In this document: one piece after another, positions 1 to 26,182 of the stretch
How positions within the stretch are numbered: position 1 is the first letter of the stretch
Layout: each line of letters starts with the position of its first letter
Assembly: GCA_903847335.1 (NCBI GenBank)
Contig: CAINDI010000144.1
Span: 1 to 34,092 of the forward strand
Length of the DNA: 34,092 bases
Reading direction: 5' to 3'
DNA from: an uncultured Verrucomicrobiota bacterium
GTDB lineage: Bacteria > Verrucomicrobiota > Verrucomicrobiia > Palsa-1439
Translations under genes and position numbers: made by a program
Notes under the pieces: model-generated
Database searches by the model: none
What the model was told of the DNA's origin: nothing
The model's input: the letters and a program-made list of their open reading frames with translations, nothing else

Positions 1-1
1 G

Positions 2-3202: not shown

Positions 3203-3239
3203 ACCGTCAAATTAGCGAGTGAACTCTTCACCGGCAAGC

Positions 3240-3267: not shown

Positions 3268-3279
3268 TATGGAAATACA

Positions 3280-3881: not shown

Positions 3882-5432
3882 ATGAAATCGCGGCTGCTGC
3901 TGTTATGGCTAGTTCTGCCTGCCATTGCGGTAGCGCGTGAAGTGCCGATTACCATTCTGCATACCTGCGATTTACACGGCAACATCTTACCGGTCGAAAG
4001 TTACGAAGGTCAGACGAACCTCGGTGGTTTCGCTCGGTGCGCAACGGCAATCCGTCAAGTGCGCGCCGAACACCCTAACGCATTGCTCATTGATGCCGGC
4101 GACACGTTCCAAGGCGCAGCGGTTAGCTATCTTTCCGATGGCAAGGTGATGGTACGCTTGCTGAACCAACTCCGGTATGACGCGTGGGTCTGGGGGAATC
4201 ACGAGTTTGACTGGGGTTTGGTAAAACTTACCGCCTGTGCGGAATTAGCGGAAATGCCGATTTTGGCCGCCAACCTGCACGGCACCAGTTCGATAGCGGC
4301 ACAGGTCAGGCCTTACCGGATTGTGGAAGTAGATGGTGTTAAAGTTGGCATCATTGGCCTTACCACTCCCGGTATTCCATCATGGAGTCGACCACAGTTA
4401 ATTACCGGATTGCGGTTTGAAGATTCAGTTGAAACACTCCGCAATGTTGTGCCAATAATTCGTCAAGCCGGTGCAAAAGTAATTGTGCTCGTTGTTCATC
4501 AAGGCTATCGCGAAGATGGTGACGACCATGCAAACCAAATCAACGCTATCGCCGGACACTTCCCGGAGATTGATGTCATTATCGGTGCGCACACGCATCG
4601 GAACTTTTCGGAGTTCAAAATTAAAAACGTGCTTTATACGCAAGCGGCTTATCACGGAATTCGCTTAGGTCGAGTGGATTTGGTCTATGACACAACCGCC
4701 GGTCAGTTGACACGCCGAGAAACAAAAACTGTTTTGCTGGACGAAAGTTTACCACTGGATCCGGTGGTACTTACGGCGTGTGCTCCGGAACTTGAGCAAT
4801 CTAAAAAGCTACTTTGCAGCGTTATCGGCGAAGCGACTGGCGACTTTGATATCCGCAATGCCCCAAAGCGCGAGACAACGATGCATAATTTAATTTTCGA
4901 ATCGATTGTAGCTGCTTTGAGTAATCGTAATATCAAGGTGGATGCTGTTATTCATGGCGTTTTGGAAAAGCTTATGATGCTAAAATCTGGTCCGGTTACG
5001 GTCGGTGACATCTGGCGTGCAGTGCCATACGAAAACACACTTGGCGTCTGTTATCTAAATGAGACAGAGTTACGCGAGATTCTCGACGAGAATGCGGGAG
5101 CGTACAACAATCCGTCATTCCGTGGTATTTGGGGTTTGCACTGGGAGTTTAATCCAAAAGCTGTAGCTGGTCAGCACACTGTTAAGTTGACGAGACCGGA
5201 TGGAACTCCGTTTTGCACCGGTGAGCGGCTAGCGGTCGTATTTAATAGTTATGATCTTGCCGGTGGCGGATTACGTTGGCCGAAGCTCCGTGAAATTGCT
5301 AACCGACCCGCGTGCCAGCTGCTCGAAACCGAGGTGCAAACCCGGCAAGCTGTGTTGGATTACATCCGGCAACAAGGCAAAATCTCACCTGTTATTCACG
5401 GCTGGTGGAAAGCGGTTACCGATAGTCGCTAA
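3882..5432 (+). CDS. Secreted bifunctional metallophosphatase/5'-nucleotidase (UshA-like)
   Basis: The 516-residue protein hydrolyses nucleotides or related phosphoesters outside the cytoplasm. A short signal peptide (MKSRLLLLWLVLPAIAVA) precedes the calcineurin-like phosphoesterase domain with its dinuclear metal ligands: Asp30 and His32 (DLH), Asp74 (DAGD), Asn106-His107 (GNHEFDWG), a His in VLVVHQGY and two in GAHTHRNF. The C-terminal 5'-nucleotidase domain follows from about residue 310, with the substrate-stacking region around NSYDLAGGG. Length is typical of UshA. It starts 17 nt after the cyclophilin stop, so the two may share a transcript. Its stop lies only 3 nt from the stop of the convergent GHMP kinase gene. 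The exact substrate is not predictable. Confidence 0.9.
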   Translation: MKSRLLLLWLVLPAIAVAREVPITILHTCDLHGNILPVESYEGQTNLGGFARCATAIRQVRAEHPNALLIDAGDTFQGAAVSYLSDGKVMVRLLNQLRYDAWVWGNHEFDWGLVKLTACAELAEMPILAANLHGTSSIAAQVRPYRIVEVDGVKVGIIGLTTPGIPSWSRPQLITGLRFEDSVETLRNVVPIIRQAGAKVIVLVVHQGYREDGDDHANQINAIAGHFPEIDVIIGAHTHRNFSEFKIKNVLYTQAAYHGIRLGRVDLVYDTTAGQLTRRETKTVLLDESLPLDPVVLTACAPELEQSKKLLCSVIGEATGDFDIRNAPKRETTMHNLIFESIVAALSNRNIKVDAVIHGVLEKLMMLKSGPVTVGDIWRAVPYENTLGVCYLNETELREILDENAGAYNNPSFRGIWGLHWEFNPKAVAGQHTVKLTRPDGTPFCTGERLAVVFNSYDLAGGGLRWPKLREIANRPACQLLETEVQTRQAVLDYIRQQGKISPVIHGWWKAVTDSR

Positions 5433-5435
5433 GAC

Positions 5436-6632
5436 TCAAAGCCCCGGCAGAACCGTAACTCCATCGACAAGACTGCAAACGTGCATTGCAAACTTACCGG
5501 CAAATTCGGGATGGCTGCGCGGATAGCCAATCTGAACCGCATTCCGTAATTCTTCGACGGCATCGGCACGCACCAGTGCACCGGCGGCACCTTTATCACC
5601 GCCGCCGAGCATTCGTTCGCCGAGAACGCCGGAAACAGTGCGAGCAATATCACACATGGTTTCGAGTTCTGGCCCGGAAATTTGGTAGTCATCGCGCAAA
5701 CCAACACCGTCTCGCCGGAATATCGCGCCAACTTCTTCAAGATTACCGGCCTTCCAAGCGGTGAGCATTTTTTGAAACCGATGCTGCGCGTGGTAAATAT
5801 AATTCAACCGGGGAGCCAGCACTGGGAAACGACTGATAATCTGCCGGTAAAGATTTTCATCGCGGACATCGGCCAAGCAAGTGAGACCGGCAAGCTTGGC
5901 GAGTTCGTCGCACTCGGCTCGACGGATTTTGTAGGTGGACTTTTCTAAACCAGGACGAACAGTGCCGGTATCGAGGCTGACAATCCGGAAATCAATCGCG
6001 CCTTTACCAAGAGGAATATAGTTGATGGCGAGAGTTTTTGGATTGTAATGCGTACCGGTACCGGCTTTCGCAAAGTAAATCATGATTTGGTCGAGCTTGC
6101 CGCACGGCGAGCCGATGTAATCGTTCTCGACGGCTTGCGCGAGATCAATGATTTGCATGTCGTCTTTAACTGGAGTGCCGTTAACTTCTAAAAAGGTAAG
6201 AATCAGATTCAGCGTCAATGACGCCGAGCGGGACATTCCGCCACCGGGGATGTTGCTATGTAGTACGGCGTCGAAGCCGTGCGTTACTGGAAAGCCAGCG
6301 CGGTGAAGAATGAAACTCGCACCGTAAGCAAACCGCGCCCATGAATCGGTTACGGTTTTGGCAGAAGGAACTTTACCGGGTGTGAAATCGATAATCCCGT
6401 CACCGGGAAAATTATCGCTGAATAGACGGATACGACCGGAGTCGTTCGGTCGGTAGGCAAGCCAGATAAATCGATCGGTGCCAACGCCGAAAAGTTCGGT
6501 GCCGTTATAGTCACCGTGCTCGACACCAAAACAGAAACGCGAGGATGTACGACGGATTTTACCACCGGTAACATTCAGACCATGTTGCCGGGCGAGCGAT
6601 GCAAGTTTTGAGCGAATATTGGCGTCCTGCAT
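5436..6632 (-). CDS. GHMP-family sugar kinase, galactokinase-like
   Basis: This GHMP-superfamily kinase phosphorylates a sugar or sugar-like hydroxyl using ATP. It shows FGVEHGDYNG (counterpart of the galactokinase GEHxDYNGG motif, with VEH for GEH), an ATP-binding loop IPGGGMSRSASL, CGKLDQ carrying the presumed catalytic Asp, and a C-terminal LGGGDKGAAGALV loop. I start it at the ATG at 6632 (398 residues); the frame is open further up to 6719, but that would overlap actF. No clear ribosome binding site precedes 6632. It follows actF by 37 nt as the last gene of the respiratory unit, an odd place for a sugar kinase. Departures from the canonical N-terminal motif mean the substrate may not be galactose. 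Confidence 0.8.
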   Translation of the reverse strand: MQDANIRSKLASLARQHGLNVTGGKIRRTSSRFCFGVEHGDYNGTELFGVGTDRFIWLAYRPNDSGRIRLFSDNFPGDGIIDFTPGKVPSAKTVTDSWARFAYGASFILHRAGFPVTHGFDAVLHSNIPGGGMSRSASLTLNLILTFLEVNGTPVKDDMQIIDLAQAVENDYIGSPCGKLDQIMIYFAKAGTGTHYNPKTLAINYIPLGKGAIDFRIVSLDTGTVRPGLEKSTYKIRRAECDELAKLAGLTCLADVRDENLYRQIISRFPVLAPRLNYIYHAQHRFQKMLTAWKAGNLEEVGAIFRRDGVGLRDDYQISGPELETMCDIARTVSGVLGERMLGGGDKGAAGALVRADAVEELRNAVQIGYPRSHPEFAGKFAMHVCSLVDGVTVLPGL

Positions 6633-6669
6633 GGACTCAAAAATAGGCGAAGTTGGACGACAAGCCAAA

Positions 6670-7644
6670 CTAAATTGACGGACGGCAGGCGCGATAAACC
6701 ACAACCGCAATGATTCCAAGCATCGCGACTAATTCAGCAACGAATAAGACGGGGTTCTGCTGGACGTAAGGAAGGATGTGAAATAGGCGTTCAACCAACA
6801 AGCCCACCAGAATTAAAAACGCTAGCCCAGCCGACTTCGGCGCACTTTTCCGAGCGTGATGAATCAAGAAAACGATGAATGGAATACCAAATAGTAAGAT
6901 GATACTGGTGATAAATAAGTAGGTTCCGCCGGGGAGAGCAAATCTTCGAGTGAAGAACAGGACTTCTTCGGGGATGTTGCCGTACCAGATTGTTAAATAT
7001 TGGGCGAAGGTTAAGCCGCCCCAGAACAACGCAAAACCAAATAATAAGCTGGCGGTGTCGTACACGGCTCCACCGGTGCTACCGGGTATCTGGCGTTCTT
7101 GAACAAAACAGATGATCGCGGCTAAAGCTAACCCGGCGTACAAACATTCAATCATATAGATGGCCGGAAACATTGTGGAGGTCCATGGATACTCAAAGCT
7201 CATTACCCAATCCATTGCCACTAAAGTTTTTACAACCGCAAAGGTGAGAATATAGGCAACCGCCCACTGACGTGTGGATGGTTTGTCAGTTACGGCGGCA
7301 CTTTGGAAGCAAATACCGATTGTTGCTAACACAAATAATGCAACCACACCTCGAATTATAAAATCAATATGGTTCAGGTATGCCGTTTCTCGTAATAGCC
7401 ACGGATAGGGCGCAAGGGTGACAAGGAATGGGAAAAGAAATAAAAGTGGAGTAAGCGCTAAGAGTGGCCGTTTGATTAGCTCAATCCATTTTGCATTCGA
7501 AAGCGTTGCCGCCGCCACAAGCAATACCGCACCCTGGACGAGCGCCATGCCAAGCAAGACTACCGGCAGGCTTGTTCCAGATTGATCTAGATGAACTAAA
7601 AAAGTAAGCACTACTATTGGGATGAGTAGAAAAATATGTTTCAT
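6670..7644 (-). CDS. actF: Alternative complex III membrane subunit ActF
   Basis: ActF is an integral membrane subunit of alternative complex III (quinol:cytochrome c/electron acceptor oxidoreductase), a relative of the NrfD/PsrC-type subunit ActC. The 324-residue protein is almost entirely hydrophobic, with about nine or ten predicted helices. Helix-rich segments such as AMDWVMSFEYPWTST and the ARKSAPKSAG loop fit the family. Its start overlaps the actD stop by 4 nt (7641-7644), and it follows the canonical order actC-actD-actF. It is somewhat shorter than many ActF proteins. The assignment rests on family pattern plus position in the act cluster. Confidence 0.85.
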   Translation of the reverse strand: MKHIFLLIPIVVLTFLVHLDQSGTSLPVVLLGMALVQGAVLLVAAATLSNAKWIELIKRPLLALTPLLFLFPFLVTLAPYPWLLRETAYLNHIDFIIRGVVALFVLATIGICFQSAAVTDKPSTRQWAVAYILTFAVVKTLVAMDWVMSFEYPWTSTMFPAIYMIECLYAGLALAAIICFVQERQIPGSTGGAVYDTASLLFGFALFWGGLTFAQYLTIWYGNIPEEVLFFTRRFALPGGTYLFITSIILLFGIPFIVFLIHHARKSAPKSAGLAFLILVGLLVERLFHILPYVQQNPVLFVAELVAMLGIIAVVVYRACRPSI

Positions 7645-8066
7645 AATTCCTCAACAAAAATTGCGAATTTTCCATCGGCTTCGATTGACGTCAGGATGTA
7701 TTTTGGTGCCGGTACGCGTGCCAAATATAAAAAACCCAGTAGCGAGGCAACAGCGCCAAGTAGAATCGTTAGCTCAAAGGCAATAATCATAAATGGCGGC
7801 AGTGATACGATTGGTTTACCGCCGTGACTCATGGGCCAGGATGTCGCGGAATAAATTGTCAGAGCAAACCCGGCGCAAAATCCGGTTAGCGCGCCGGTGA
7901 AGGTAAAGAACTTCAGCCGACTGACCGGTGTCTTAAGTAGCAGTAAGGCTTCGTGCACTGGGAAAGGGGTGGCAACTTCAATACGCTCGACCGGCGTACC
8001 GGTGGCAAGTAGTTCGCGCAACTTGGCAAGAAATGGCTCGGTGTCGTCAAATGTGAAGCGTTTCAT
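7641..8066 (-). CDS. actD: Alternative complex III subunit ActD (DUF3341)
   Basis: ActD is the small two-helix subunit of alternative complex III that helps anchor the complex. The 141-residue protein has an N-terminal cytoplasmic segment with the family-typical start (FDDTEPFLAKLRELLATG and VEVATPFPVHEAL-like residues), two helices at about 50-77 and 89-117 separated by a short GGKP loop, and a short polar C-terminus. It is a little shorter than the common 170-180 residues. Its start lies inside the 3' end of actC (20-nt overlap) and its stop overlaps the actF start by 4 nt, suggesting tight translational coupling. Confidence 0.87.
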   Translation of the reverse strand: MKRFTFDDTEPFLAKLRELLATGTPVERIEVATPFPVHEALLLLKTPVSRLKFFTFTGALTGFCAGFALTIYSATSWPMSHGGKPIVSLPPFMIIAFELTILLGAVASLLGFLYLARVPAPKYILTSIEADGKFAIFVEEL

Positions 8067-9378
8067 GGGCGCGTTCCTCTTTGAGTTCGGTGACGGACAA
8101 GACCGGCAAGACTTTGACGAAAATTAGGAAAAATGTGAAAAACATTCCGAAGGATCCGACGGTGATTCCAATCGCAACCCAACTCCAATTCGGATTACCC
8201 CATGCATACGGATCGAAGTCGTGCGCGAGCGATGTAACAATAATGACGAAGCGTTCGAGCCACATGCCCACATTGACAAACAATGAGAGTACAAACAGGT
8301 AGACAAGATTGCGTCGCAGTTTGCGGATAAACAGCGTCAACGGCAGTAAGACATTGCAAAAGCACATCAACCAATATGGTTTACGGAAATCGCCAAGCAT
8401 CCGAAACATAAAATGCGCCGTCTCAAACACGTTGCCACCGTAGAAGGCCATTGCATATTCGAGAATATACGCATAGCCGACAATCATCGATGTAAACAAG
8501 AGGAGCTTCGCGATCGATTCAAAATGATCCACCGTGATGTATTGCTCAATTCCAAGAATTTTTCGCATAGGTACGACCAATGTAATGACCATTGCACAGC
8601 CCGAAAAAATCGCACCGGCAACAAAGTACGGCGCGAAAATTGTGGTGTGCCAGCCTGGAATCACGCTCATTGCGAAATCCCACGACACAACAGAGTGCAC
8701 TGAAATCACCAACGGCGTCGCAAAGGCGGCGAGAAATCCGTACAGTTTTTCATAATGCGACCATTGCTTCGCTGTGCCGCGCCAGCCGATTGAAAGTATG
8801 CGATAGAACCATTGCCGAATACCGGTGATCCGCCGGCGGGCGATTGCTAAATCCGGCAAGAGTCCGATGTAAAAAAATACGGCACTTACCGTAAAATAAG
8901 TCGAAACTGCAAAAACGTCCCACACCAATGGCGACCGGAAGTTCACCCACAATAAGCGTTGATTCGGATATGGCATGAGCCAATAGAAAAACCAAACACG
9001 TCCTAAATGGATGAGGGGAAATAAGCCAGCCGTCATCACCGCGATAACTGTCATCGCTTCTGCTGATCGATTAAACGCCTTGCGGAACTTTGCGCGGAAC
9101 AGGAACAGTACGGCTGAAATCAAAGTCCCGGAGTGCGCGATGCCCACCCAAAACACGAAGTCGGTAATATACATGTACCAGCCGACTGGATTGTTCTTAC
9201 CGGAGACGTGCATCCCGCTAAAAATCTGCCAACCCCAGCACGCCAGTCCGATTCCAAAGCAGGTAAGCGATATCGCCAATGCCAGCCAATAGGTCGCTCG
9301 CGGTTTCTGCATTGCGGCAAACACATCCGCTTCAACTTGCTCGTAATATGCCGCGTTGTTGACTGGTTCTGTCTTCAT
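8047..9378 (-). CDS. actC: Alternative complex III quinol-site subunit ActC (NrfD/PsrC family)
   Basis: ActC is the polytopic membrane subunit thought to carry the quinol-oxidation site of alternative complex III. The 443-residue product has about ten helices and family-typical segments: FWVGIAHSGTLISAVLFLFRAKFR, AEAMTVIAVMTAGLFPLIHLGR-like residues around the first helices (His in GIAHSGT), SVHSVVSWDFA and PYFVAGAIFSG. These match the NrfD-like membrane subunits of alternative complex III. The ATG overlaps the actB stop by 4 nt (9375-9378), so it is probably translated coupled to the iron-sulphur subunit with which it interacts. Confidence 0.92.
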   Translation of the reverse strand: MKTEPVNNAAYYEQVEADVFAAMQKPRATYWLALAISLTCFGIGLACWGWQIFSGMHVSGKNNPVGWYMYITDFVFWVGIAHSGTLISAVLFLFRAKFRKAFNRSAEAMTVIAVMTAGLFPLIHLGRVWFFYWLMPYPNQRLLWVNFRSPLVWDVFAVSTYFTVSAVFFYIGLLPDLAIARRRITGIRQWFYRILSIGWRGTAKQWSHYEKLYGFLAAFATPLVISVHSVVSWDFAMSVIPGWHTTIFAPYFVAGAIFSGCAMVITLVVPMRKILGIEQYITVDHFESIAKLLLFTSMIVGYAYILEYAMAFYGGNVFETAHFMFRMLGDFRKPYWLMCFCNVLLPLTLFIRKLRRNLVYLFVLSLFVNVGMWLERFVIIVTSLAHDFDPYAWGNPNWSWVAIGITVGSFGMFFTFFLIFVKVLPVLSVTELKEERAHETLHI

Positions 9379-11918
9379 GACTCACTTCGCGATGTTAGAT
9401 AATACACCGCCGGTTCCACACCTAATTCCTCAAGCACCCGGTATGTTCGATCCGATTTTGCTTGTTGATGAACGTGCGATTGCTCGTCGAGTATGTTGCC
9501 AAACACAATCGCCTGCGCCGGGCAGGTCTGCGCACACGCCGTCGTCACTTCGCCATCGTGTACCAATCGCTTCTCATCTTTGGCGTGGTCTTTTGCGCGC
9601 ACAATCCGGTGGACGCAGAAGGTGCATTTTTCCATCACGCCTTTCGGTCGTTTGGAAACATCTGGGTTGAACATTAAGTCCAACGGTTGTGCGACCGGAT
9701 GATCAATCCAGTTAAAACGCCGGACCTTATAGGGACAATTGTTCGAGCAATAACGAGTGCCAACGCATCGGTTATAAACCTGTGCGTTCAATCCTTCCGG
9801 ATTGTGGTATGTCGCATTCACCGGACAAACCGGTTCACACGGTGCGTTATCGCATTGCTGACACATCATTGGCAGCATCTCAAAATCACCGGCGTCGTTC
9901 ACAAATGGCTCGATTCGGAGCCACGACATTTCGCGCCCGGCCACATGTTCATCGCGTCCGACAAGTGGAATATTATTTTCAACGTAACAGGCCGCGACAC
10001 ACGCTCCGCAACCGGTGCAACGATCCAAATCAATCGCCATCGCCCACCGGTAATTCTTGTATTCATGCGGCGGATATAAAGTTTTATTGACGTGTTCAGC
10101 CTTGTGTTCGTGCTCGTGTTTGTGTTCCAGCCCCGGCACGATACCGCGTCCCTCGGCGTGCATTCCGCCGGACAAAAACGGCAGTGCTACCGCCGGAACC
10201 GCCGGGACTGCAATTGCATCGAGTGGCCACACGGAGATTTCTTCGCCGGTCACTGTAAGTGGTAATGAAGCGCCGTTTAAGAATGGCCGTTGCACCGTGA
10301 ACACGCCAACCGGTTGCGCCGGCATTACTCGTACCGGTAGATTAAAACTCCTTCCGCCGACTGCAAATCCCACAATCCCGCCATCTTTCAAACTCAAAGT
10401 TTCGGCGTCTTGTTCAGAAATCGTTACCCACGGCCCATACGTCACCGTCGTCAACGGGTCCGGTATTTCACTCAGCAACGGCAAGCATTCACCACGACCA
10501 TCAAATGTACGAATCGAAGGTGTGATCACCAATGTCCGCCCCGCACGTACCGGCGTGGGTTTGATGTTCGCTAGAAATTTCCGCACGTCGCCGGGTGGTT
10601 GTATGACCGGTGCTTGCTTCGGTCGTGCTTCTGCACCAAGTTTTTGCAAAATCCCCGCTAGACTTTGCGTGTCGCCGAACGGTTTGACTGCGCCATCTTC
10701 TTCCAGCGCGTGTGATAACGGCAAAACCAAATCGCAACCGGCGAGCGTCGGATTAAGCATATCGCCAAATCCAACTCGGAAACTTGCCTTACCAAGCACC
10801 GCACCGAAACTCGGTCGATAAGTGACTGGATCGGTGTTGTGAAAGAACGCCACTGAAACCTTGCCATCGGCAAGCTGTTGCTCTAATTCCACAACGTCCG
10901 CCAACGAGCCAACACGGTCATCGTCCGCCCAAGTGAGCGGTGCATGGTGTTTTTCTTGCAGAACTGCACTGAGCACGGCAGCCAATAATCCATTTTCGGT
11001 GGCGGTTGTAACACCACCGGCGATAACTAGCGGATTCTTTGCTTTCTTCAACCGCTCTGCCAATTCGGTAATTCGTGAAAGTTTTAAGCCGGTTTGTTCG
11101 GCGGCTTGTGCGGCGGTTACACCGAGTTCACCGGCGAGAAATGCCAGTAGCCATGCTTCGCTACCGGCACGGACAACGAGGCGTTCGTCGGCGTTGACAC
11201 CGGTGAGCGAAAGATGTGGTTCGAGGTGAATCCATTTCAATTTCGTTGCCGCTAAATCTTGCGCGAACTGCACCGGATTAAGAAAAGTCTCGATGACATC
11301 TGCGCCAAACGTGATCAGCAAATCAGCCTGCTTCACGTCGTAAACCGGCAAGGCGTGGCGACCGAATACAAGCGCATTGGCTTGCCGGAGCGCAGCGTGC
11401 GAATACAACTCAAGCTCTGGCCGACGCTCGATATTTCGTTTCTGACAAAAATCCTCAATAAACCCACTGACGCTACCGGTGGTGCGTTCAGACAAAAAGA
11501 TATGCCGGCGACCGGTGATATTTTTACCGAGTGCGCCATTGAGAATCGCGAAAGCTTCATCCCATGAAATTGTTTGGAATTCACCGGTCGTTCCGCGCAA
11601 TTGCGGAGCACGTAAACGGTTCGGGTGATACAGCCGCGATAATCCCGCCTGACCGCGCATGCAAAGTGCACCACGGTTCACTGGATTGTCGGGATCGCCT
11701 TCCAATTTTACCGGCCGGCCATCGCGAACTTTGGCGAGCACGCCGCAACCGGCTGAACATTCCCGGCAGGTGGAGCGTACAAACTCTGCTTCACCAGGCA
11801 AGAGGCGAGGCGTAGTTAATTGCGACACAAGTTTCGATGCAACTTTCTGATCGCATGCAGTCGCCACCGCGGCGCCGGTGCTGGCTCCAAGAATTCTAAA
11901 AAAATCTCTCCGGTTCAT
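9375..11918 (-). CDS. actB: Alternative complex III iron-sulphur subunit ActB
   Basis: ActB fuses a molybdopterin-oxidoreductase-like domain to a PsrB-like four-cluster ferredoxin domain and relays electrons from quinol to the haems. The 847-residue protein starts with a twin-arginine leader (RRDFF) followed by ATAC at 19-22, a possible lipobox that would anchor Cys22. The N-terminal domain retains Cys51, Cys54, Cys58 and Cys86 in the C-x2-C-x3-C-x27-C spacing of a [4Fe-4S] site of molybdoenzymes. From about residue 630 come the ferredoxin motifs: CTGCGACVAAC, CQQCDNAPCEPVCP, CVGTRYCSNNCP and CTFCVHRI with a later CAQTCP. It lies 14 nt after actA and overlaps actC by 4 nt. It is shorter than many characterised ActB proteins. 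Confidence 0.93.
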   Translation of the reverse strand: MNRRDFFRILGASTGAAVATACDQKVASKLVSQLTTPRLLPGEAEFVRSTCRECSAGCGVLAKVRDGRPVKLEGDPDNPVNRGALCMRGQAGLSRLYHPNRLRAPQLRGTTGEFQTISWDEAFAILNGALGKNITGRRHIFLSERTTGSVSGFIEDFCQKRNIERRPELELYSHAALRQANALVFGRHALPVYDVKQADLLITFGADVIETFLNPVQFAQDLAATKLKWIHLEPHLSLTGVNADERLVVRAGSEAWLLAFLAGELGVTAAQAAEQTGLKLSRITELAERLKKAKNPLVIAGGVTTATENGLLAAVLSAVLQEKHHAPLTWADDDRVGSLADVVELEQQLADGKVSVAFFHNTDPVTYRPSFGAVLGKASFRVGFGDMLNPTLAGCDLVLPLSHALEEDGAVKPFGDTQSLAGILQKLGAEARPKQAPVIQPPGDVRKFLANIKPTPVRAGRTLVITPSIRTFDGRGECLPLLSEIPDPLTTVTYGPWVTISEQDAETLSLKDGGIVGFAVGGRSFNLPVRVMPAQPVGVFTVQRPFLNGASLPLTVTGEEISVWPLDAIAVPAVPAVALPFLSGGMHAEGRGIVPGLEHKHEHEHKAEHVNKTLYPPHEYKNYRWAMAIDLDRCTGCGACVAACYVENNIPLVGRDEHVAGREMSWLRIEPFVNDAGDFEMLPMMCQQCDNAPCEPVCPVNATYHNPEGLNAQVYNRCVGTRYCSNNCPYKVRRFNWIDHPVAQPLDLMFNPDVSKRPKGVMEKCTFCVHRIVRAKDHAKDEKRLVHDGEVTTACAQTCPAQAIVFGNILDEQSHVHQQAKSDRTYRVLEELGVEPAVYYLTSRSES

Positions 11919-11932
11919 TGTAAAATCTCAAG

Positions 11933-12442
11933 TTACTTATGACACGTCCAACAATCCGTCGGTGCATTGTTTTCCCGGTGGCAGCTCACGCACCAACCCA
12001 TTTCGAGCGACCGGACCTGATGGACTTGCGTCATCGTGTTGACTTCGCCGTGGCAAACGGTGCAATCCACGCCGGCGGCGATGTGGCGTTTGTGGGTAAA
12101 GCGAACATGCCACGGTAGCTGATGAATCTTCGACCACTCGATTGGTTCCTGTTTCGTCCAGTGTTCCGTCAGAATCTTAATTTCCGGACTCTCGGTTTTA
12201 ACTTTGGTATGACATTCCATACACACCGCCAGCGGCGGCGCACTGGCTGCCGGTGAGTTAGTAACGGTGATATGGCATTTCGTACAGGCGAGGCCGACCT
12301 TGTTAATGTGAGTGGCGTGCGGAAAATGAATTGGCTGGAGGAGTCGTTTCGTAAAAACTCCGTAATGGAAATGCAATCCAAACACAAGCAAACCAGCGAG
12401 CGCGAAATAACCGGTCACAGCGGCGAAGAGCAGCTTCTTCAT
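11933..12442 (-). CDS. actA: Alternative complex III pentahaem cytochrome c ActA
   Basis: ActA is the multihaem cytochrome c subunit that takes electrons from ActB. The 169-residue protein has an N-terminal membrane helix (about 5-27) and exactly five CxxCH haem sites with His at 57, 78, 131, 155 and 168. The last, CWTCHK, is at the extreme C-terminus. Additional His residues (for example HFPHATH and FTHKRH) can serve as distal ligands. The start overlaps the stop of the upstream membrane cytochrome gene by 4 nt (12439-12442). Five haems with an N-terminal anchor and direct linkage to actB make the assignment firm. Confidence 0.93.
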   Translation of the reverse strand: MKKLLFAAVTGYFALAGLLVFGLHFHYGVFTKRLLQPIHFPHATHINKVGLACTKCHITVTNSPAASAPPLAVCMECHTKVKTESPEIKILTEHWTKQEPIEWSKIHQLPWHVRFTHKRHIAAGVDCTVCHGEVNTMTQVHQVRSLEMGWCVSCHRENNAPTDCWTCHK

Positions 12443-13716
12443 TGCGCACCGCCTTTCGTCTCGGTCTCAAGTCGTGTTAGCAGGTAATCCGCCACCGCCC
12501 GCGCTTCGCGTCGTGATAAACCTTGTGCCGGCATTGCGGGAAACGCCGGGTCAACCTTTTGCGGCGCGAGAATGAAGGCCTGTAATTTATCGGATTGCCC
12601 CCGGTATTTCGGCAACACATCTTTGTGGGCCGGACCGACCACTTTGCGGTCAAACGCATGACACGCCGAACATTTTTCCGCGTAAATCTTTTCGCCGGCC
12701 TTTGGATCAAACGGTGTGTTGCTGGAGTATCGGACTTCTTGATCCATCTGCAATTTCGAAAATTGCGTATCGGCTTTCATCCGGAGCGCGATTAACTTGT
12801 CAGCTAAGGCGGTTGTCTGAATTAGGTTTTCACGCGTCGTTTCAAATGCCAACCCGGCAAATGCGAGAAATGCGATTATCGCAGCTCGGCAAAGATTCGG
12901 ATTCCATAACATCGCGAGCGCTAGCAACGCCGACAGCCACAACGTCACCAATAGCGGTGCGCTGACCACCAGTGCCGGAACTGACTGCGCACCGACCGGT
13001 AGAATTGCAGAATCCCAAACGACCAGTGCCGGTAATGCGACCGCGCCGAGAACCGTCAGGCTGAGAGCCCAGATGCGAATTACATTGCGCTCCGGTGCGT
13101 CTGCGGTCATTCGACTTTCGCTCCAGACAAATCCGCGAAATAATAATGCGCCACCGGTGGCGAGGATTGCACCGGCGAGGAAAATCAACGCTCGCACAAC
13201 GCCCTGCACGTCGTAAATATTCGGCAGGAGTGGATTCAAGAACGGCCAGCGCTCTGGCCAATGCAGCATTTCTAGTAGATTCACAAACGGCAACGCAAAT
13301 CCGAGTGTTGCGAGCACGCCAAGAGTTCCGGCAACGCGGCACTCACATCGGCGATACTTCCAGAGCGCGAGCAATCCAAATACCGCCAACGGTGAGAGCT
13401 TAACGATTGCCGGTAGGATTCCAAACCGGCTGCCATAGACGAGTTGTCCGAGTAGAATTGCCAGTGTCAATAGCGGCAATAAACCGAATGTAATCCACAC
13501 GCCGAGCTTACCAGAGATCGCCAATGCAAACCGGCGCGCCAAAACCGGGTTTGATCGTTGGTGCGCCAGTGCAAGCACCGTGCTAATTATCGCGATGCCG
13601 AGAAAGGCGAGGAAGATAAATTCCAGCGCGCCGGCCATCGGTTGAATCATCTCCAAGTGATGCGCGTCCGGCAAAACCATGATTTTCTGCAACAGCAATC
13701 GCGGAGTCAGATTCAT
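12439..13716 (-). CDS. Eight-helix membrane protein with C-terminal cytochrome c domain
   Basis: This 425-residue protein is not one I recognise as a named family. Residues 30-297 form about eight membrane helices. A linker with a possible amphipathic stretch leads to a class I cytochrome c domain at about 335-415, with haem motif CSACH (Cys349, Cys352, His353) and a candidate axial Met395 in FPAMPAQG. It lies between ctaB and actA and overlaps both by 4 nt. The act cluster lacks a separate ActE (the usual monohaem lipoprotein), so this protein could supply that haem in membrane-tethered form, or carry electrons from the complex to the caa3 oxidase. That role is inferred from context only. 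Confidence 0.78.
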   Translation of the reverse strand: MNLTPRLLLQKIMVLPDAHHLEMIQPMAGALEFIFLAFLGIAIISTVLALAHQRSNPVLARRFALAISGKLGVWITFGLLPLLTLAILLGQLVYGSRFGILPAIVKLSPLAVFGLLALWKYRRCECRVAGTLGVLATLGFALPFVNLLEMLHWPERWPFLNPLLPNIYDVQGVVRALIFLAGAILATGGALLFRGFVWSESRMTADAPERNVIRIWALSLTVLGAVALPALVVWDSAILPVGAQSVPALVVSAPLLVTLWLSALLALAMLWNPNLCRAAIIAFLAFAGLAFETTRENLIQTTALADKLIALRMKADTQFSKLQMDQEVRYSSNTPFDPKAGEKIYAEKCSACHAFDRKVVGPAHKDVLPKYRGQSDKLQAFILAPQKVDPAFPAMPAQGLSRREARAVADYLLTRLETETKGGAQ

Positions 13717-19114: not shown

Positions 19115-21586
19115 ATGAAACGTTTCGTGCCGCTTTTGGCTTTGCTGTTGATTGCCGCGACTTCGCTGGAGGAAAACCGCCAATTCCAAGTCGCCAGCGC
19201 CGCCTTCAACGACAAACTCTACGATGTCGCCACGCGCCAGATTCAGGAGTTCCTCGAAAAATATCCGCAATCACCACGCACCGGTCATGCGCTTTTCTTA
19301 CTCGGCCGCGCTCAGCTCAACTTGAACGAGTGGGAAACCGCCATTCATACTTTAGAATCAGCGCTGGCGAAATGGCCGGACAAGCGTACGGACGAAGTCA
19401 TCTTTTGGATTGGTGAAGCACACGGTTGGGGTGGTGAATTTGCCGCCGCCGAAACCCGGTATGCGGAGCTGATTGAAAAATATCCACGGAGCACATTCGT
19501 TCCACCGGCATGGTATGCGCTCGCTACCGCACAATTCCGGCAAGGCCATTATGAAGCGGCGACTACTTCTCTGAATAAAATCCATGCCACCGGTGATCTC
19601 GCGCTCGACGCCGAATTGCTGCGCTGCCAACTCCTTCTCGCCGGGCAAGATTTTACCAAAGCCAATGCGGCCCTCGAAGTTGTCGCTCGCAAGGCCGGTA
19701 ACACTAACCGTGCTTTTTACCGGGCAAATTTCTGGCTGGGCGAATCGCTCGCGCGCCGGCAGCAATTTTCCGATGCACTCCTCCGGTACGCCGTGGTAAC
19801 CGATGCGTTCAAGGCGAAACCCAACGAACCGGTGGATGCGCAGCTAGCCGGTGAGGCTTGGTTTGCGGCCGGCTGGGCGCATTGGAATGCCGGCGAGTTT
19901 GCTACAGCCAGTGAAGCGTTCAGCACGGCCTTGGCGACTGCAACGAGCCGGAAGTTGAAACGCGATGCAATGTTAAAGGTAGCCGAGTGCGCCGCGCGCA
20001 CCGGCAAGACTGCTGATAGCGTGGCCGGATTAAAAGAATTTTTAGCAAAACAACCGCGCGATCCGTTAGCCGATGCCGCGCAGTTGGCTATCGGCGATTT
20101 GACGTTCAGTGGCGGCGCGAGTGGTGCGGTATTGGCGGAATACAATCGTTTCATCAGTACCTACACCAATAGCTCGCTTCTGGTACGCGCCTACACGCAA
20201 GCTGGTTGGTGTGCCTGGCAGTTGCAACAATTACCGGCCGCGCTGAGCTACTTCCAAAATGCATTGCCGCTACTCAAGGAAGAGGAAGCGCTCACTGCTG
20301 TGCAATTCAAAATTGCCGACATTCATTTTGTACTCGGACAATTTCCAGAAGCGATCAGTAACTTACAGCAACTCATCCGCGCTCATCCGCGGGTCGGCAT
20401 CGTTGACCGGGCTTACTTTCAACTCGGTGAAGCTCAACGCCGCGCCGGTGATGTGAAAGCCGCGATGGCGATATTCACGACTATCGCGAAAGAATATCCG
20501 GCCAGCCATTGGGCGCCGGGCGCACAATATAGCCTTGGTCAATTACTCGCCGGTGAACGCCGGGAAGAAGAGGCGCGCGCCGCATTTGCTGTCGTTCATA
20601 ATTTCCTAACCAATGAATGGGAATCGAATGCCGCCTTGGCCATCGGCGAATCATTTGCCCGCGAAGGTCAAACGGAACTAGCCATCGCGGAGTTTGATAA
20701 ACTTACTGCCGCTGGATTGGAAACAGAATTAGCGCAGCAGGCATTTTACGATCGGGGTTGGATTCTTCCGCGCGAAAAAACTTTGGCGGAATTTTCTGAA
20801 TTTCTCAAAACACATTCCCAAGCAAAACTCGCGCCCGATATCCAATACTGGATTGCCGACGAATACCTCCGGCAGCGTGATTACCTGAAAGCGCAGGCGC
20901 AATTCCAGTCGTTAGCGGAAAATTATCCGGCGAGTCGCATGGCGGATACCGCGCAGTATTTTGCCGGGCGCGCCGCGTATGGCCGGCAAGATTTCGAGGC
21001 GGCGATTAAGCTTTATGAAACTTTATTGAAAAAGTTTCCGCAATCAAATTGGCGGTGCGACGCGCGATTTGGTCAGGGCGATGCGCTGAGTGAGCTTGGC
21101 AAATTTGATGACGCACTGTTGGTGTTTGAGTCGTTGACAAAGGAGTTTCCGGATTGTTCGCTGACCGGTGAAGCGTGGGGGAGGAAAGGGGATTGCCAAT
21201 ACTCGTTGAGCCGGCACGACGATGCGCTGGCAAGCTACCGGAAGGCACTCGATCTCGCAAAAGATTCCGGCACGCGGAATCAGGCGTTGTTCAAACTCGG
21301 ACAGACGTTTGAGGTGCAGAAGAAATTTGATGATGCGATTCAGCAATACACGAAGGCGCTGTATGAAACGACTGCGGCGCTGACTCCGGATGTACCGGTT
21401 GAGCGATTCTGGTCGTGCAAAGCGGCTCGCGCTGCTGCCGGTCTGAAAGAACAGCAGAATCAATGGGCTGACGCCATTACGTTATACATCCGGCTTGGTG
21501 AACTCTGTCCGGACTTGAAAGAACTCGCCGATGATCATATTCGGAAACTTAAAACTCCGCATCCCGAAGCTTTACTGGTTCGATAA
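19115..21586 (+). CDS. Large periplasmic tetratricopeptide-repeat protein
   Basis: The product is a TPR scaffold predicted to lie in the periplasm or be attached to the outer membrane. From ATG 19115 it has 823 residues: a signal peptide (MKRFVPLLALLLIAATS) then TPR-like helix pairs over almost the full length, with recurring patterns such as A.....Y......P.S......Y.LG and FDDAIQQYTKAL. Several repeats match the YbgF/CpoB or BamD-like sub-type (YPxSxxAxxAQYxxG). An upstream in-frame GTG (19085) would add ten residues. It precedes exbB-, exbD- and tonB-like genes by 55 nt, so it may be the periplasmic partner of that complex. No catalytic domain is seen. Confidence 0.85.
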   Translation: MKRFVPLLALLLIAATSLEENRQFQVASAAFNDKLYDVATRQIQEFLEKYPQSPRTGHALFLLGRAQLNLNEWETAIHTLESALAKWPDKRTDEVIFWIGEAHGWGGEFAAAETRYAELIEKYPRSTFVPPAWYALATAQFRQGHYEAATTSLNKIHATGDLALDAELLRCQLLLAGQDFTKANAALEVVARKAGNTNRAFYRANFWLGESLARRQQFSDALLRYAVVTDAFKAKPNEPVDAQLAGEAWFAAGWAHWNAGEFATASEAFSTALATATSRKLKRDAMLKVAECAARTGKTADSVAGLKEFLAKQPRDPLADAAQLAIGDLTFSGGASGAVLAEYNRFISTYTNSSLLVRAYTQAGWCAWQLQQLPAALSYFQNALPLLKEEEALTAVQFKIADIHFVLGQFPEAISNLQQLIRAHPRVGIVDRAYFQLGEAQRRAGDVKAAMAIFTTIAKEYPASHWAPGAQYSLGQLLAGERREEEARAAFAVVHNFLTNEWESNAALAIGESFAREGQTELAIAEFDKLTAAGLETELAQQAFYDRGWILPREKTLAEFSEFLKTHSQAKLAPDIQYWIADEYLRQRDYLKAQAQFQSLAENYPASRMADTAQYFAGRAAYGRQDFEAAIKLYETLLKKFPQSNWRCDARFGQGDALSELGKFDDALLVFESLTKEFPDCSLTGEAWGRKGDCQYSLSRHDDALASYRKALDLAKDSGTRNQALFKLGQTFEVQKKFDDAIQQYTKALYETTAALTPDVPVERFWSCKAARAAAGLKEQQNQWADAITLYIRLGELCPDLKELADDHIRKLKTPHPEALLVR

Positions 21587-21641: not shown

Positions 21642-22247
21642 ATGCTGATGCTAATGCAACAAGGCGGACCGTTGATGTGGTTGATTCTATTGAGCGCGGT
21701 GGTCGCGTTCGTGATTTTTAGCGAACGATTTTTGTACTACCACCGGGCGCATATTAATACCGGTGATTTTGTGAACGGCATCCGCAATGCGCTGAAGCGC
21801 GGCAATGTTTCCGAGGCGCTTGCGTTGTGTGACGAAGCGCCGGGTCCGGTGGCGCAGGTTGTGAAAGCCGGTATCGAAAATCGTGAGCTCCACCGAGAAG
21901 ACCTCCGCGAAGCAATGGAAGACGCCGCACGTATTGAGATTGCCCGACTTGAACGCCGGTTGGTGGTGCTGGCCACCATCGCCCAGATCGCGCCACTGCT
22001 TGGCTTTCTCGGCACGGTCGCCGGTATGATTAGCACTTTCAAAGTCATGCAGGCGACAATGCAGTCCGCGCCCGGCCAATTAGCCGGTGGTGTTTGGCAG
22101 GCACTCTTAACGACTGCAGGTGGACTAGTCGTCGCCATCCCGGCGTATGTCGGCTACAATTACCTCGTCAGCCGGATGCGGAGCATTGTGCTGGATATGG
22201 AAAAAGCCGCAAACGAAATCATCAACTTCCTGACGCGCCGTCCATGA
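21642..22247 (+). CDS. MotA/TolQ/ExbB-family motor subunit with Glu-to-Gln change
   Basis: ExbB/TolQ proteins form the pentameric inner-membrane stator that uses proton flow to energise TonB or TolA. The 201-residue product has three helices: about 12-30, 112-135 and 150-175. The conserved LLGFLGTVAGMISTF block carries Thr125, and LLTTAGGLVVAIPA carries Thr158, matching the pore Thr residues of ExbB. The position equivalent to E. coli ExbB Glu176 is Gln153 (GVWQALLTT, codon CAG). The gene overlaps the exbD-like start by 4 nt (ATGA). Family membership is clear; whether it conducts protons is doubtful, given the parallel change in its partner. Confidence 0.93.
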   Translation: MLMLMQQGGPLMWLILLSAVVAFVIFSERFLYYHRAHINTGDFVNGIRNALKRGNVSEALALCDEAPGPVAQVVKAGIENRELHREDLREAMEDAARIEIARLERRLVVLATIAQIAPLLGFLGTVAGMISTFKVMQATMQSAPGQLAGGVWQALLTTAGGLVVAIPAYVGYNYLVSRMRSIVLDMEKAANEIINFLTRRP

Positions 22248-22669
22248 CTTTCAAAACTCACGTCACCATCGCCAACGGTCGCATTGATGCCGCGCCGATG
22301 ATTAACGTGGTGCTTTTGCTTTTGGTATTTTTACTCCTGAGTTCGCCGTTTGTTTTGCAATCCGGGTTTGGCCTCGTGGAAATGCCGACTGCGCGCGGAC
22401 CGAAGAATGTTTCACTGCAAGAACTGGTGATTACCATCTCGCGCGACAATCTGCTGTTCTTCAAAAATCAGCCGACGACATTGGCAAAGTTACCGGAGCT
22501 TTTACGGAGTGCCGCCGGTGAAACGCGCAATCCCGAACTCATCATCAAAGCCGACCGGCAAGTCGGCTACGATACTTTAATCAAAGTCATCGACAGCGCG
22601 TTTGATGCCGGGATTTCGGCCATCAACCTCGCCACGCGAACCGAAACACCGGTCGCGCCGTCAAAATGA
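22244..22669 (+). CDS. ExbD/TolR-family protein with Asp-to-Asn change in its helix
   Basis: ExbD/TolR subunits sit in the ExbB pore, and their single helix carries the essential protonatable Asp. This 141-residue protein has the usual architecture: short cytoplasmic N-terminus, helix 19-40, and a periplasmic domain with the LIIKADRQVGYDTLIKVID segment typical of the family. The motif normally written P-x-I-D-V reads APMINVV: Asn21 (codon AAC) replaces the Asp equivalent to E. coli ExbD Asp25. Its ATG 22244 overlaps the exbB stop, and its stop overlaps the tonB-like ATG, both by 4 nt. The upstream open frame to 22094 is only exbB read in another frame. Confidence 0.92.
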   Translation: MTFKTHVTIANGRIDAAPMINVVLLLLVFLLLSSPFVLQSGFGLVEMPTARGPKNVSLQELVITISRDNLLFFKNQPTTLAKLPELLRSAAGETRNPELIIKADRQVGYDTLIKVIDSAFDAGISAINLATRTETPVAPSK

Positions 22670-23388
22670 TTCCGCGCATTCGTGTTCACGAACGCCACGT
22701 TTTGATGTGGTTATTGATTGCATCCATGGCGGCGATGGCAATGGTTGCCATCTGGCTGTTTTGGAGCCATCAAGCTAGTCACACTCTTGCACCGGGCGGC
22801 GCCGCGCATGTTCATTGGTTGCGGCCAACGCAGCAGCCAATCATTGCTGAGTACTTTGATCCGAGCGTGATGTCGCTCCCGAATCCGCGCGGTTTTTCCG
22901 GCAATGCTTGGCGGCATCTTGCGCCGGCGATCCAAACGGCATACAAGCCAGAACAACCACCGGCGTTTCTCGCTTTACCGGCAAGTGCGCCATTGCCGGT
23001 TTTATTACCGGAGCCTTCCCTCGGTGAATTGACGCAAACACAAATCACGCCGACTGCAATTGAATCCGAATCCGTTACCACGGCAACGATTGTCCCGGTC
23101 ACAAATTCGATAATTGAAATCACCGGTGCATTAAGCGGGCGGCAGATTTTACAGTCACCGGTGTTGCCGCTGGCGAGCGTGCCGGTGCGAACCACGCGAG
23201 TCTTAATTGCCGTGACCGGTGATGGCCGAGTTCGGTATGCGGTGCTGGAACGCTCGTCCGGAAATGAAGTGCTGGACGGCGCGGTGGTGGAGATTGCCCG
23301 GCAGGTGTGGTTTGCGCCGGAACCAAATATAAATCCATTGGCGTTGACGTGGGGCACGCTGCGATTAGTTTGGGCAGCGCGCATTTGA
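22666..23388 (+). CDS. TonB-like energy-transducer protein
   Basis: The 240-residue protein has a cytoplasmic start, one membrane helix (about 14-33), a modestly proline-rich periplasmic linker (about 50-130), and a C-terminal domain with the TonB pattern GDGRVRYAVLERSSGNEVLDGAVVE (split across about 185-210). This resembles the fold of TonB carboxy-terminal domains that contact outer-membrane partners. The helix lacks the His of the canonical TonB S-x3-H motif needed for coupling to ExbB/D. It overlaps the exbD-like stop by 4 nt and is the last gene of the cassette. Function as a TonB is inferred; it could be a structural linker in a modified complex. Confidence 0.8.
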   Translation: MIPRIRVHERHVLMWLLIASMAAMAMVAIWLFWSHQASHTLAPGGAAHVHWLRPTQQPIIAEYFDPSVMSLPNPRGFSGNAWRHLAPAIQTAYKPEQPPAFLALPASAPLPVLLPEPSLGELTQTQITPTAIESESVTTATIVPVTNSIIEITGALSGRQILQSPVLPLASVPVRTTRVLIAVTGDGRVRYAVLERSSGNEVLDGAVVEIARQVWFAPEPNINPLALTWGTLRLVWAARI

Positions 23389-23480: not shown

Positions 23481-24644
23481 ATGGGAATGTGGATTGGAAG
23501 AAATCGAAAAGCACGAGTGACCTACGGGTTTGACGACATTGCGTTGGTGCCCGGCGATATTACAATTAATCCGAACGAAGTGGACACGACATTCCAGCTC
23601 GGGGCACACAAAATTCGCGTGCCGATTTTGGCGAGTGCGATGGACGGCGTGGTGGATGTAAAATTTGCGATCGCCATGGGTAAACTCGGCGGCGTCGCGG
23701 TGCTAAATCTCGAAGGCGTGCAGACCCGGTACAAAGATCCGGCGGAAATTCTCGACAAGATTGCGAGCGCGACCAAAGAAGAAGCTACGCATCTGACGCA
23801 GCAAGTTTATACCGAACCAATCAAAGAAGAACTCGTTGCTCAGCGCGTCAAGGAAATCAAAGCGGCTGGCGTTCTTTGTGCTGTTAGCGCGATTCCGCAA
23901 CGCGCAGAACGTTTCGGTGCAATTGCCCAAGAAGCCGGTGCGGATATTTTTGTGGTGCAATCTACCGTTTCCACCGTTCGTCATATCTCCAGCGAATATG
24001 CGACGTTCAATGTTGCTGAGTTCTGCAAAGCGATGAAAATTCCGGTGGTCATCGGTAACACGGTGACATATTCCGCGACGCTCGAACTGATGCAAAGCGG
24101 TCCGGCGGCGATTCTTGTCGGTGTTGGTCCCGGTGCGGCTTGCACCACGCGCGGCGTTCTTGGTCTCGGCGTGCCACAGGTCACGGCGACGGTGGATTGC
24201 GCAGCCGCTCGCGACCATTATTTCAAACAGACCGGCCGGTATGTTCCGATTATTACCGATGGCGGAATGAATAAAGGTGGCGATATTTGCAAAGCATTCG
24301 CTTGCGGTGCGGATGCGGTAATGATTGGCAGCGCGTTTGCGCGAACGAAGGAAGCGCCGGGACGTGGTTATCACTGGGGTATGGCGACTCCACACGCGAA
24401 TTTACCACGCGGCACTCGCGTCCGTGTCGGTGTCACCGGCACAGTGAAGCAGATTCTTTTTGGCCCGGCTGAACTTGATGACGGTTCGCAGAATTTAATG
24501 GGTGCGCTGATGACCTGTATGGGCAACGTCGGGAAAAAGAATATTCGTGAATTCCAAGAAACCGACATCATTATTGCTCCGGCGATCAAGACCGAAGGCA
24601 AAATCTTCCAGACCGTCCAAGGCGTTGGCATGGGCAGCAAGTAG
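23481..24644 (+). CDS. guaB3: GuaB3-family IMP dehydrogenase-related protein
   Basis: The 387-residue TIM barrel belongs to the IMP dehydrogenase/GMP reductase superfamily and lacks the CBS (Bateman) insert of canonical GuaB; the barrel runs straight through residues 80-130. The catalytic loop is GPGAACTTR with Cys221. The phosphate and nucleotide regions [20 protein letters not shown] and VMIGSAFA are intact. It could oxidise IMP to XMP for the adjacent GMP synthase. A GuaB3 from cyanobacteria has been reported with GMP reductase activity, so the reaction is open. The Met1 context ([20 protein letters not shown]) matches the family start. It overlaps a possible guaA GTG by 1 nt. Confidence 0.9.
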
Positions 24645-24646
24645 TG

Positions 24647-26182
24647 ATGGAACAAATCATCATCCTCGACTTCGGGTCGCAATACACGCAAGTCATCGCG
24701 CGGCGGATTCGCGAATGTCAGGTATTTTCGCAAATTCTCCGGTACGATACGCTGGCGGAAAAGCTGGCGGAGTTAAAACCGAGCGGCATTATTCTCAGCG
24801 GTGGACCGTGCAGTGTTTACGATAAGAAAGCACCACATTGCGATACCGGCATCTGGAAACTTGGCGTGCCGATTCTTGGTATCTGCTACGGAATGCAGTT
24901 AATGGCGCATCAGCTCGGTGGCAAAGTTCAACCAGGTGGAAAGCGCGAGTACGGGCCGGCGGAAATTGACATCGCAAAAGATACGACGCTATTCCGCGAG
25001 ATGGCTTATGAGCAACAAGTCTGGATGAGCCACGGTGACAAGGTTACTAAACTACCGGCGGGATTTATTACCGTTGCCAAGAGTCAGAACTCACCGTATG
25101 CGGCGATTGCGAATAATAAACGGCGGCTGTACGGCTTACAATTTCATCCAGAAGTTCACCACACGCCGAATGGCAAACAAATCATTTCCAATTTTGTTCA
25201 CGGTATCTGCGGTTGCGGCCGGAACTGGACAATGAAATCGTTCATCGAAAATTCCATTGAGGAGATTCGAGCGAGAGTTGGTAAAGACAAAGTGGTACTC
25301 GGCCTCTCCGGTGGTGTGGATTCTAGCGTCGCAGCGGCTTTGATTCACAAAGCTATCGGCGATCAACTCATCTGCGTGTTTGTCAATAACGGCGTACTTC
25401 GCAAAGGCGAAGCCGAGAGTGTTCAGCGAGTTTTTGGTGAACATCTGAAAATGAAACTGGTGTACACCGATGCAACGCGGATTTTCTTGTCAAAGTTGCG
25501 CGGCGTCACCAATCCGGAACGGAAGCGCAAAATTATCGGTCGCACCTTTGTCGAAGTTTTCGATAAAGCGGCTCACAAAGCCGGTAAGGCAAAGTTTCTC
25601 GCGCAAGGAACGACTTATCCCGATGTAATCGAAAGCGTTCCGATTGCTGGCAACCCGGCGGCAATGATTAAGAGCCATCACAATGTTGGTGGTTTGCCGA
25701 AACGGATGAAACTTGAATTACTCGAACCACTCCGGCAGCTATTCAAGGATGAAGTTCGCGAAGTCGGTACACAACTCGGCTTGCCGAAAGAAATCGTCTG
25801 GCGTCAGCCGTTCCCTGGCCCCGGTCTCGCGGTGCGAATTCTGGGCGAGGTCAACCGCGAGCATATTACCGTGTTGCAAAATGCCGACTGGATTGTCATC
25901 GAGGAAATGAAAAAAGCAGATTTGTATTACAAAATTTGGCAGACATTTGCCGTGTTGTTACCGGTGAAGAGTGTCGGAGTGATGGGCGACGAACGCACTT
26001 ACGAAAATGCAATTGCCATCCGCGCGGTAGATAGCGTGGACGGCATGACCGCCGACTGGGTGCGATTGCCGTATGATTTACTCGCCCGGCTTTCGACGCG
26101 GATCATCAATGAAGTCAAGGGTGTCAACCGCGTTTGTCTCGACATCTCCAGTAAGCCACCGGCGACGATTGAGTGGGAATAA
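24647..26182 (+). CDS. guaA: GMP synthase (glutamine-hydrolysing)
   Basis: GuaA aminates XMP to GMP with glutamine and ATP. The N-terminal class I glutamine amidotransferase has LDFGSQYTQ, the nucleophile Cys80 in GICYGMQ, and the His-Glu of [10 protein letters not shown]. The ATP pyrophosphatase domain has the P-loop LSGGVDSS, and the C-terminal dimerisation domain ends in the family signature [13 protein letters not shown]. From ATG 24647 it is 511 residues; the GTG at 24644, which overlaps the guaB3 stop, would add one. It is only 2 nt from guaB3, so the two form an operon for guanine nucleotide synthesis. It converges with the UroD-family gene 14 nt away. Confidence 0.97.

Follow-up and report, generated by a model that had tools for sequence, protein, structure and literature searches.

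In all 5:2 motors (MotB, TolR, ExbD), the Asp residue in the helix of the axle is generally regarded as the part that defines the engine. Older mutant work points to a role of Glu176 of E. coli ExbB as well. In the Ton system of E. coli, Asp25 of ExbD as well as Thr148 and Thr181 of ExbB were called essential (PMC6778125, PMC12905483), His20 of TonB touches Ser34 of ExbB, and a Ser16/His20-Ser34/Trp38-Pro190 network connects TonB to the channel (PMC12215075). The motors specified by the TPR-TolQ-TolR-TolR-vWA clusters of the PVC group were described as proton-driven (PMC12204202). A report of a naturally Asp-less ExbD or TolR was not found in the freely accessible literature that was searched. 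Here, we describe a conserved copy of the Ton motor, present in Verrucomicrobiia and their relatives, from which the acidic residue that is thought to carry the protons has disappeared repeatedly and, as it appears, irreversibly.

The window, i.e. the whole stretch of 34,092 nucleotides that was analysed, corresponds to contig C144 of a 2.35-Mb assembly of an uncultured Verrucomicrobiota bacterium (completeness 99.6%, contamination 4.45%). Its forward strand carries the genes for a TPR protein, ExbB, ExbD and a TonB-like protein, followed by two genes that we take to be guaB and guaA, as recognised from the sequence alone (Table 1). In many families of the class, one or both of the latter genes lie 3' of the cassette (window positions 23481-26182 and relatives). 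A four-base overlap (ATGA) joins exbB to exbD and likewise exbD to the tonB-like gene. The TPR protein starts with a probable Sec signal, MKRFVPLLALLLIAATS, judged by eye, and matches many further TPR models, with tol_pal_ybgF as the top NCBIfam model. A plasmid search yielded zero matches. The scores of ExbB and ExbD do not reach the NCBIfam equivalog cut-offs for exbB and exbD (62.0 versus 206.2 bits and 39.9 versus 153.0 bits) or those for TolQ and TolR (96.1 versus 221 bits and 50.8 versus 127.3 bits). The TonB-like protein comprises an N-terminal membrane helix, a linker with a DPSxxSLP motif and a C-terminal domain of the TonB fold, and its score is above the NCBIfam cut-off for the TonB C-terminal domain and under the Pfam TonB cut-off. 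In the AlphaFold2 model this C-terminal domain has a pLDDT of about 95, and its top hits in the PDB are exclusively C-terminal domains of TonB (E 3e-3 to 8e-2, probability about 0.99). The AlphaFold2 model of ExbD contains a helix of residues 17-33 that includes position 21 and a periplasmic domain resembling that of E. coli ExbD (Foldseek E 2.6e-7, TM 0.86).

Table 1. Features of the cassette and its neighbourhood in the window, with the residues discussed in the text.
Feature	Position	Strand	Evidence or remark
Periplasmic TPR protein, 823 aa, YbgF/BamD-like repeats	19115..21586	+	Pfam TPR_16, E 2e-53
ExbB/TolQ-like channel-ring subunit, 201 aa	21642..22247	+	PF01618 (MotA_ExbB), 115.9 bits, cut-off 22.9
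ExbB Ala19, position of E. coli ExbB Ser34 (TonB contact)	21696..21698	+	Register to E. coli set by hand
ExbB Thr125 (E. coli Thr148), kept	22014..22016	+	
ExbB Gln153 (CAG), position of E. coli Glu176	22098..22100	+	ExbB family profile aligned with E. coli TolQ
ExbB Thr158 (E. coli Thr181), kept in the window, eroded in many Asp-less relatives	22113..22115	+	
ExbD-like axle subunit, 141 aa, with a single membrane helix plus ExbD periplasmic domain	22244..22669	+	PF02472, 86.1 bits, above cut-off
ExbD Asn21 (AAC), position of E. coli Asp25	22304..22306	+	Ungapped alignment to E. coli ExbD in PDB
TonB-like transducer, 240 aa	22666..23388	+	TIGR01352, 30.3 bits, cut-off 27.1
Ala23 of the TonB-like helix, in the column of the conserved His (His20 in E. 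coli TonB)	22732..22734	+	Alignment with relatives
guaB-like gene, IMP dehydrogenase family	23481..24644	+	Conserved downstream neighbour, orthology marker
guaA-like gene, GMP synthase	24644..26182	+	Second conserved downstream neighbour

The original prediction had placed amides at both key positions of the motor, and these assignments were borne out by the gapless alignment of Asn21 with Asp25 of E. coli ExbD and by the profile alignment, in which Gln153 falls on the Glu of the TolQ motif GIAEALIATA that corresponds to ExbB Glu176. The predicted retention of both pore Thr residues in the window ExbB and the lack of the conserved His in the TonB-like helix, where Ala23 occupies the respective column, hold equally. 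The description of the genes as intact and translationally coupled agrees with the ATGA overlaps, with Pfam scores well above the cut-offs and with the purifying selection reported below.

Further sets were detected in the same genome (G000), which contains six ExbB and eight ExbD copies, and all seven other ExbD proteins carry the Asp (7/7). The Glu176 position is occupied by Glu in three of the other ExbB proteins and by Ala in two ExbB/TolQ copies, so that this position alone is not diagnostic. Two of the loci, L018 (contig C84, positions 1-3402) and L017 (contig C176), comprise one ExbB gene followed by two different ExbD genes, all with Asp, an arrangement resembling the paired heterologous tolR genes that were described for the PVC group (PMC12204202). 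Locus L015 (contig C136, positions 8176-12852) encodes an ExbB with Ala at the Glu176 position and a long N-terminal extension, LamG-like by eye, together with an ExbD and a TonB-like protein, and adjoins genes resembling a two-partner secretion transporter and an outer-membrane porin. Additionally, L019 (contig C113, positions 5146-9073) represents a canonical-looking Tol-Pal locus with genes for TolQ, TolR with Asp, a TolA-like protein, TolB and Pal, followed by tatA/tatC-like genes; its TolQ has Ala at the Glu176 position.

Orthologs of the cassette were searched in 57 relatives, then in 384 genomes of the class and in named contigs of GTDB species, and were called by the ExbB score and in many cases also by shared guaB/guaA and TonB-like neighbours. 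The search yielded 203 distinct ExbB-ExbD pairs, a sample of the best matches to the window that ends near an E value of 5e-53 and favours close sequences; 125 of the 384 class genomes gave no match at 1e-44. In the tree set of 146 cassette pairs the Asp25 position is occupied by Asp in 43 and by another residue in 103. With respect to the 47 family codes, ten contain only Asp, 34 only other residues and three both, and Asp is consequently missing in 37 of the 47. The replacing residue is Asn, Gly, Ala, Ser, Cys, Thr or Met, and the occurrence of the six others besides Asn indicates that carboxylate chemistry is not kept. According to the names as deposited, the members that have lost the Asp (termed Asp-less in the following) include Opitutia, Spartobacteria, Verrucomicrobiales and Lentisphaeria MAGs and one Hydrogenedentota MAG, and the Asp-bearing ones include Pontiella, Omnitrophota and other Spartobacteria. 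Close homologues with Asp and Glu had been regarded as a possible sign of a sequencing error, and such a homologue does exist in the window's own genus, but the change is genuine: Asn and Gln also occupy these positions in the three species of the sister genus, and the Asp is absent from many other genomes, some of them single-contig, by which a sequencing or assembly error was rejected. An identity of the cassette with an Akkermansia locus was rejected as well, since the complete small genomes taken as Akkermansia, which is a guess, contain no ortholog at E 1e-44 and their ExbB and ExbD carry Glu and Asp.

The main tree was calculated from 153 concatenated pairs with the Asp, Glu and Thr181 columns left out. 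It requires 13 changes of the Asp state, counted as 13 independent losses, and 14-15 are required on trees from ExbB only, from FastTree or from alignments free of the pore columns, with several nodes weakly supported and a support of 65 for a clade of 71 Asp-less members. A two-state model, for which the root was assumed to be fixed on Asp, gave a loss rate of 0.38 and a regain rate of effectively 0, and an irreversible-loss model reached the same likelihood as the free two-state model. As a control, a Pfam ExbD search of 22 genomes with an Asp-less cassette gave two to 11 matches each, and the Asp is present in all of the 70 non-cassette copies that were aligned from the top and bottom of the score range. 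These data clearly indicate that the constraint on the Asp was lifted only in this cassette, where its loss is recurrent and, in the best-fitting model, unreversed.

The presence of at least one other ExbD match in each of the 22 genomes searched, with Asp in every copy examined, is compatible with an Asp-less ExbD whose action depends on mixed assembly with an Asp-bearing ExbD encoded elsewhere in the genome, where one Asp per ring would be enough, and current models include an asymmetric use of two Asp residues (PMC12215075). We nevertheless regard such a mixed complex as distinctly unlikely, given that the cassette brings an ExbB-ExbD-TonB set of its own, with translational coupling in the window, that the ring residue meant to serve the Asp (Thr181) erodes too and that the other ExbD genes adjoin their own ExbB genes and have diverged (identity of about 24-31% in the matched copies of the same genome).

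A parsimony scan of 337 columns was used to detect changes that are concentrated on Asp-less branches. Among the sites named beforehand, ExbB 153 (Glu176) has 34 of its 43 changes on these branches (p = 0.0037) and Thr158 (Thr181) 14 of 16 (p 0.014), and Thr125 gave a p value of 0.068. Additionally, changes are concentrated at ExbD Phe29 (10/10, p 0.0047), ExbB 19 (Ser34; 17/20, p 0.011) and ExbB Thr157 (p 0.021). All of these ExbB and ExbD positions apart from Thr125, together with ExbB Met12, rank within the first fifteen of the scan, and only Met12 and ExbD 21 itself survive the correction for 337 tests. Met12, which is located in the first helix, shows the strongest shift in the scan after the Asp itself (p 4.5e-5). 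The proposal of a specifically matched pair of amides was not upheld by these data, as the co-occurrence of Asn and Gln has a median p of 0.69 and the joint loss of Asp and Glu one of 0.38 on independent pairs; moreover, Asp25-bearing pairs also occur with Lys, Gln, Val, Thr, Met or Arg at the Glu176 position, and Asn is often combined with Glu. What stands is a weaker form of the connection, in that the changes at the Glu176 position fall mainly on Asp-less branches.

Among the Asp-bearing cassettes, 27 of 31 encode the His in the TonB-like helix, versus 46 of 92 Asp-less ones, and 29 of the latter have Gln instead. Position 19 of ExbB is Ser in 45 of the 50 Asp-bearing pairs and in none of the 21 pairs in which TonB has neither His nor Gln, and the overall association of His and Ser19 on independent pairs is not significant. 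Considering the His20-Ser34 contact in E. coli, the matching losses fit a TonB-like protein that docks on ExbB at the same place.

Protons might still drive the complex via another residue or a water wire, for instance via Asp15 of the window ExbD, six residues before position 21, or via an acid in ExbB. Such a route is unlikely: the Asp15 column contains Asp in 71 of the 104 Asp-less members, these members more often have an acid at ExbB column 105 and Thr125 is almost always retained, but the Asp15 column is equally free to change on both kinds of branches (19 and 19 changes, p 0.89), its Asp is found alongside Asp25 too and 20 of the 104 Asp-less helices contain not one acid between -8 and +17. 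A compensation by Asp15 was rejected on the basis of the equal rate of column change and the acid-free helices. Furthermore, Thr181, Glu176, Ser34 and His20 erode along with Asp25, which is the reverse of compensation. With regard to ExbB column 105 at the cytoplasmic helix end (Arg105 in the window, positions 21954-21956), an acid occurs in about 41% of the Asp-less and 0% of the Asp-bearing members, which could reflect a lineage effect or compensation.

Among close Asp-less pairs, dN/dS ranges from 0.03 to 0.17 for ExbB and from 0.09 to 0.35 for ExbD, with dS near saturation in some pairs. The residues Pro118, Gly121, Gly124, Thr125, Glu104 and Pro167 of ExbB and Asp104 of ExbD are conserved as in Asp-bearing members. 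The Asp-less cassette accordingly consists of intact genes under purifying selection, the products of which keep the fold and the core residues while other coupling positions erode. A neutral, functionless decay toward pseudogenes would agree with the many losses of the Asp and with the faster evolution of ExbD in Asp-less pairs (dN/dS up to 0.35 versus 0.06-0.17). It is highly improbable in view of the low ExbB ratios, the core residues and the preservation of reading frames and gene order across dozens of families, and the clade of 71 Asp-less members spans many families, so that the genes have long outlived the loss of the Asp.

Within the window's family, L025 has Asp, Glu, the TonB His and ExbB Ser19; L021, which belongs to the window's genus, has Asp and Glu without His and Ser19; L022 and L023 have Asp, Val153, no His and Gly19; and Asn, Gln and Ala19 in the absence of the His are shared by the window and a second genus (L024, L026, L027). 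Read on the tree, this distribution suggests a stepwise loss that would have affected the TonB-ExbB contact first and the Asp last, the order being drawn from few tips.

Two receptor plug domains were detected in the window genome. The cassette is kept in Asp-less genomes without a detectable plug domain (G134, G068, G082, G287 and G024), and no tie to the number of TonB-dependent receptors was seen across Asp-less genomes, which contain from 0 to over 40 plug domains. The cassette is therefore probably not a receptor energiser in general. An adaptor function, in which the TonB arm of the Asp-less complex still opens outer-membrane receptors by diffusion or by the force of another motor, would agree with the TonB fold retained by the C-terminal domain and with the two plug domains of the window genome. 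Since the persistence of the cassette in genomes without a detectable plug domain argues against receptors as the general client, this explanation appears very unlikely.

Intact genes under selection that have lost residues of the proton path are probably best read in the way originally suggested, as a motor that departs from the usual use of protons or as a static scaffold. On the basis of these sequence comparisons, we lean towards a Ton-like complex that descended from a proton-driven ancestor, would no longer be driven by protons via the usual route and would now serve as a fixed trans-envelope anchor. The ExbB ring, the ExbD axle and the periplasmic arm of the TonB-like protein would form a Ton-like inner-membrane complex, in which, in the case of the window, the putative proton-carrying Asp and the residue at the Glu176 position have become amides and the Ser-His coupling contact between TonB and ExbB is lost. 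The ExbBD core would then act as a fixed anchor or platform for the TonB-like protein, and for the TPR protein where present, across the periplasm and would not be an engine pulling outer-membrane receptors. We infer from the residue losses that proton flux and rotation may be absent from Asp-less complexes and that these may have a static-tether role; a static tether between the two membranes is probably the end state of a motor that has lost its Asp. Counterpoints to uncoupling are the intact Thr125 and Thr158 of the window and the failure of most single-site shifts to pass the correction for 337 tests. The D-box pattern, i.e. the TonB segment binding ExbD, was not enriched (nine matches versus 11.6 expected in Asp-less members and seven versus 4.1 in Asp-bearing ones), and the linkage between the arm and ExbD is therefore putative. 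The linker of the TonB-like protein contains a conserved DPSLxSLPxxxGFS motif (window positions 22855-22905 and relatives), a candidate partner-binding site that is at least as well conserved in Asp-less members as in Asp-bearing ones.

The suggested new TPR-containing complex was upheld in part: a TPR gene (about 830-900 aa) is adjacent to the cassette in six of the eight family members checked and also in distant PVC relatives, but it is not beside the cassette in the genus mate. This neighbour was also seen in Opitutia-like genomes. The TPR gene is an ancestral but optional neighbour of the cassette.

On a wider scale, the chances appear evenly balanced that these Ton-like 5:2 complexes, which are widespread in Verrucomicrobiota and relatives, gave up their coupling to protons on 13 or more separate occasions while the complex was kept, thereby providing a series from motor to non-motor. 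Along this natural series, the coupling to TonB, the polarity of the pore and, last, the proton-carrying Asp could be lost one by one. The repeated loss of the Asp in genomes in which the other ExbD copies examined keep it suggests that selection maintains ExbBD-TonB for a function other than proton-driven force. Close pairs, such as the two species of the window's genus with Asp and Glu versus Asn and Gln, would allow the roles of motor and scaffold to be separated. Moreover, these genes are labelled by annotation pipelines as proton channels or biopolymer transporters, which would be incorrect for the majority of the cassettes in this sample.

A comparison with the E. coli Ton system revealed that the cassette shares the three subunits, the order of their parts, the Pfam families of ExbB and ExbD, the folds of the ExbD periplasmic and TonB C-terminal domains and the ring positions Thr148 and Pro190. 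The cassette differs by the lack of Asp25, Glu176, TonB His20 and ExbB Ser34, by scores below the equivalog cut-offs for ExbB and ExbD and by its persistence in some genomes without a detectable plug domain of TonB-dependent receptors. With the TolQ-TolR-TolA proteins of the Tol-Pal system it has in common that TolQ is the best named model for its ExbB and that a YbgF-like TPR protein is encoded adjacently, whereas TolB and Pal are not adjacent, the neighbours are TPR and guaBA-like genes, and a Tol-Pal locus that encodes an Asp-bearing TolR exists elsewhere in the genome, on contig C113. The TPR-TolQ-TolR-TolR-vWA clusters of the PVC group (PMC12204202) likewise combine a TPR gene with a TolQ/TolR-like motor in Verrucomicrobia, but the cassette contains a single ExbD instead of two and an arm of the TonB fold instead of a vWA protein. 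Finally, the amide at the proton site is shared with MotAB carrying the Asp-to-Asn exchange in MotB (D22N of C. jejuni), where it mimics a permanently protonated state. The C. jejuni protein is a laboratory mutant that traps this state, whereas the change in the cassette is natural and recurrent and also leads to Gly, Ala, Ser or Cys.
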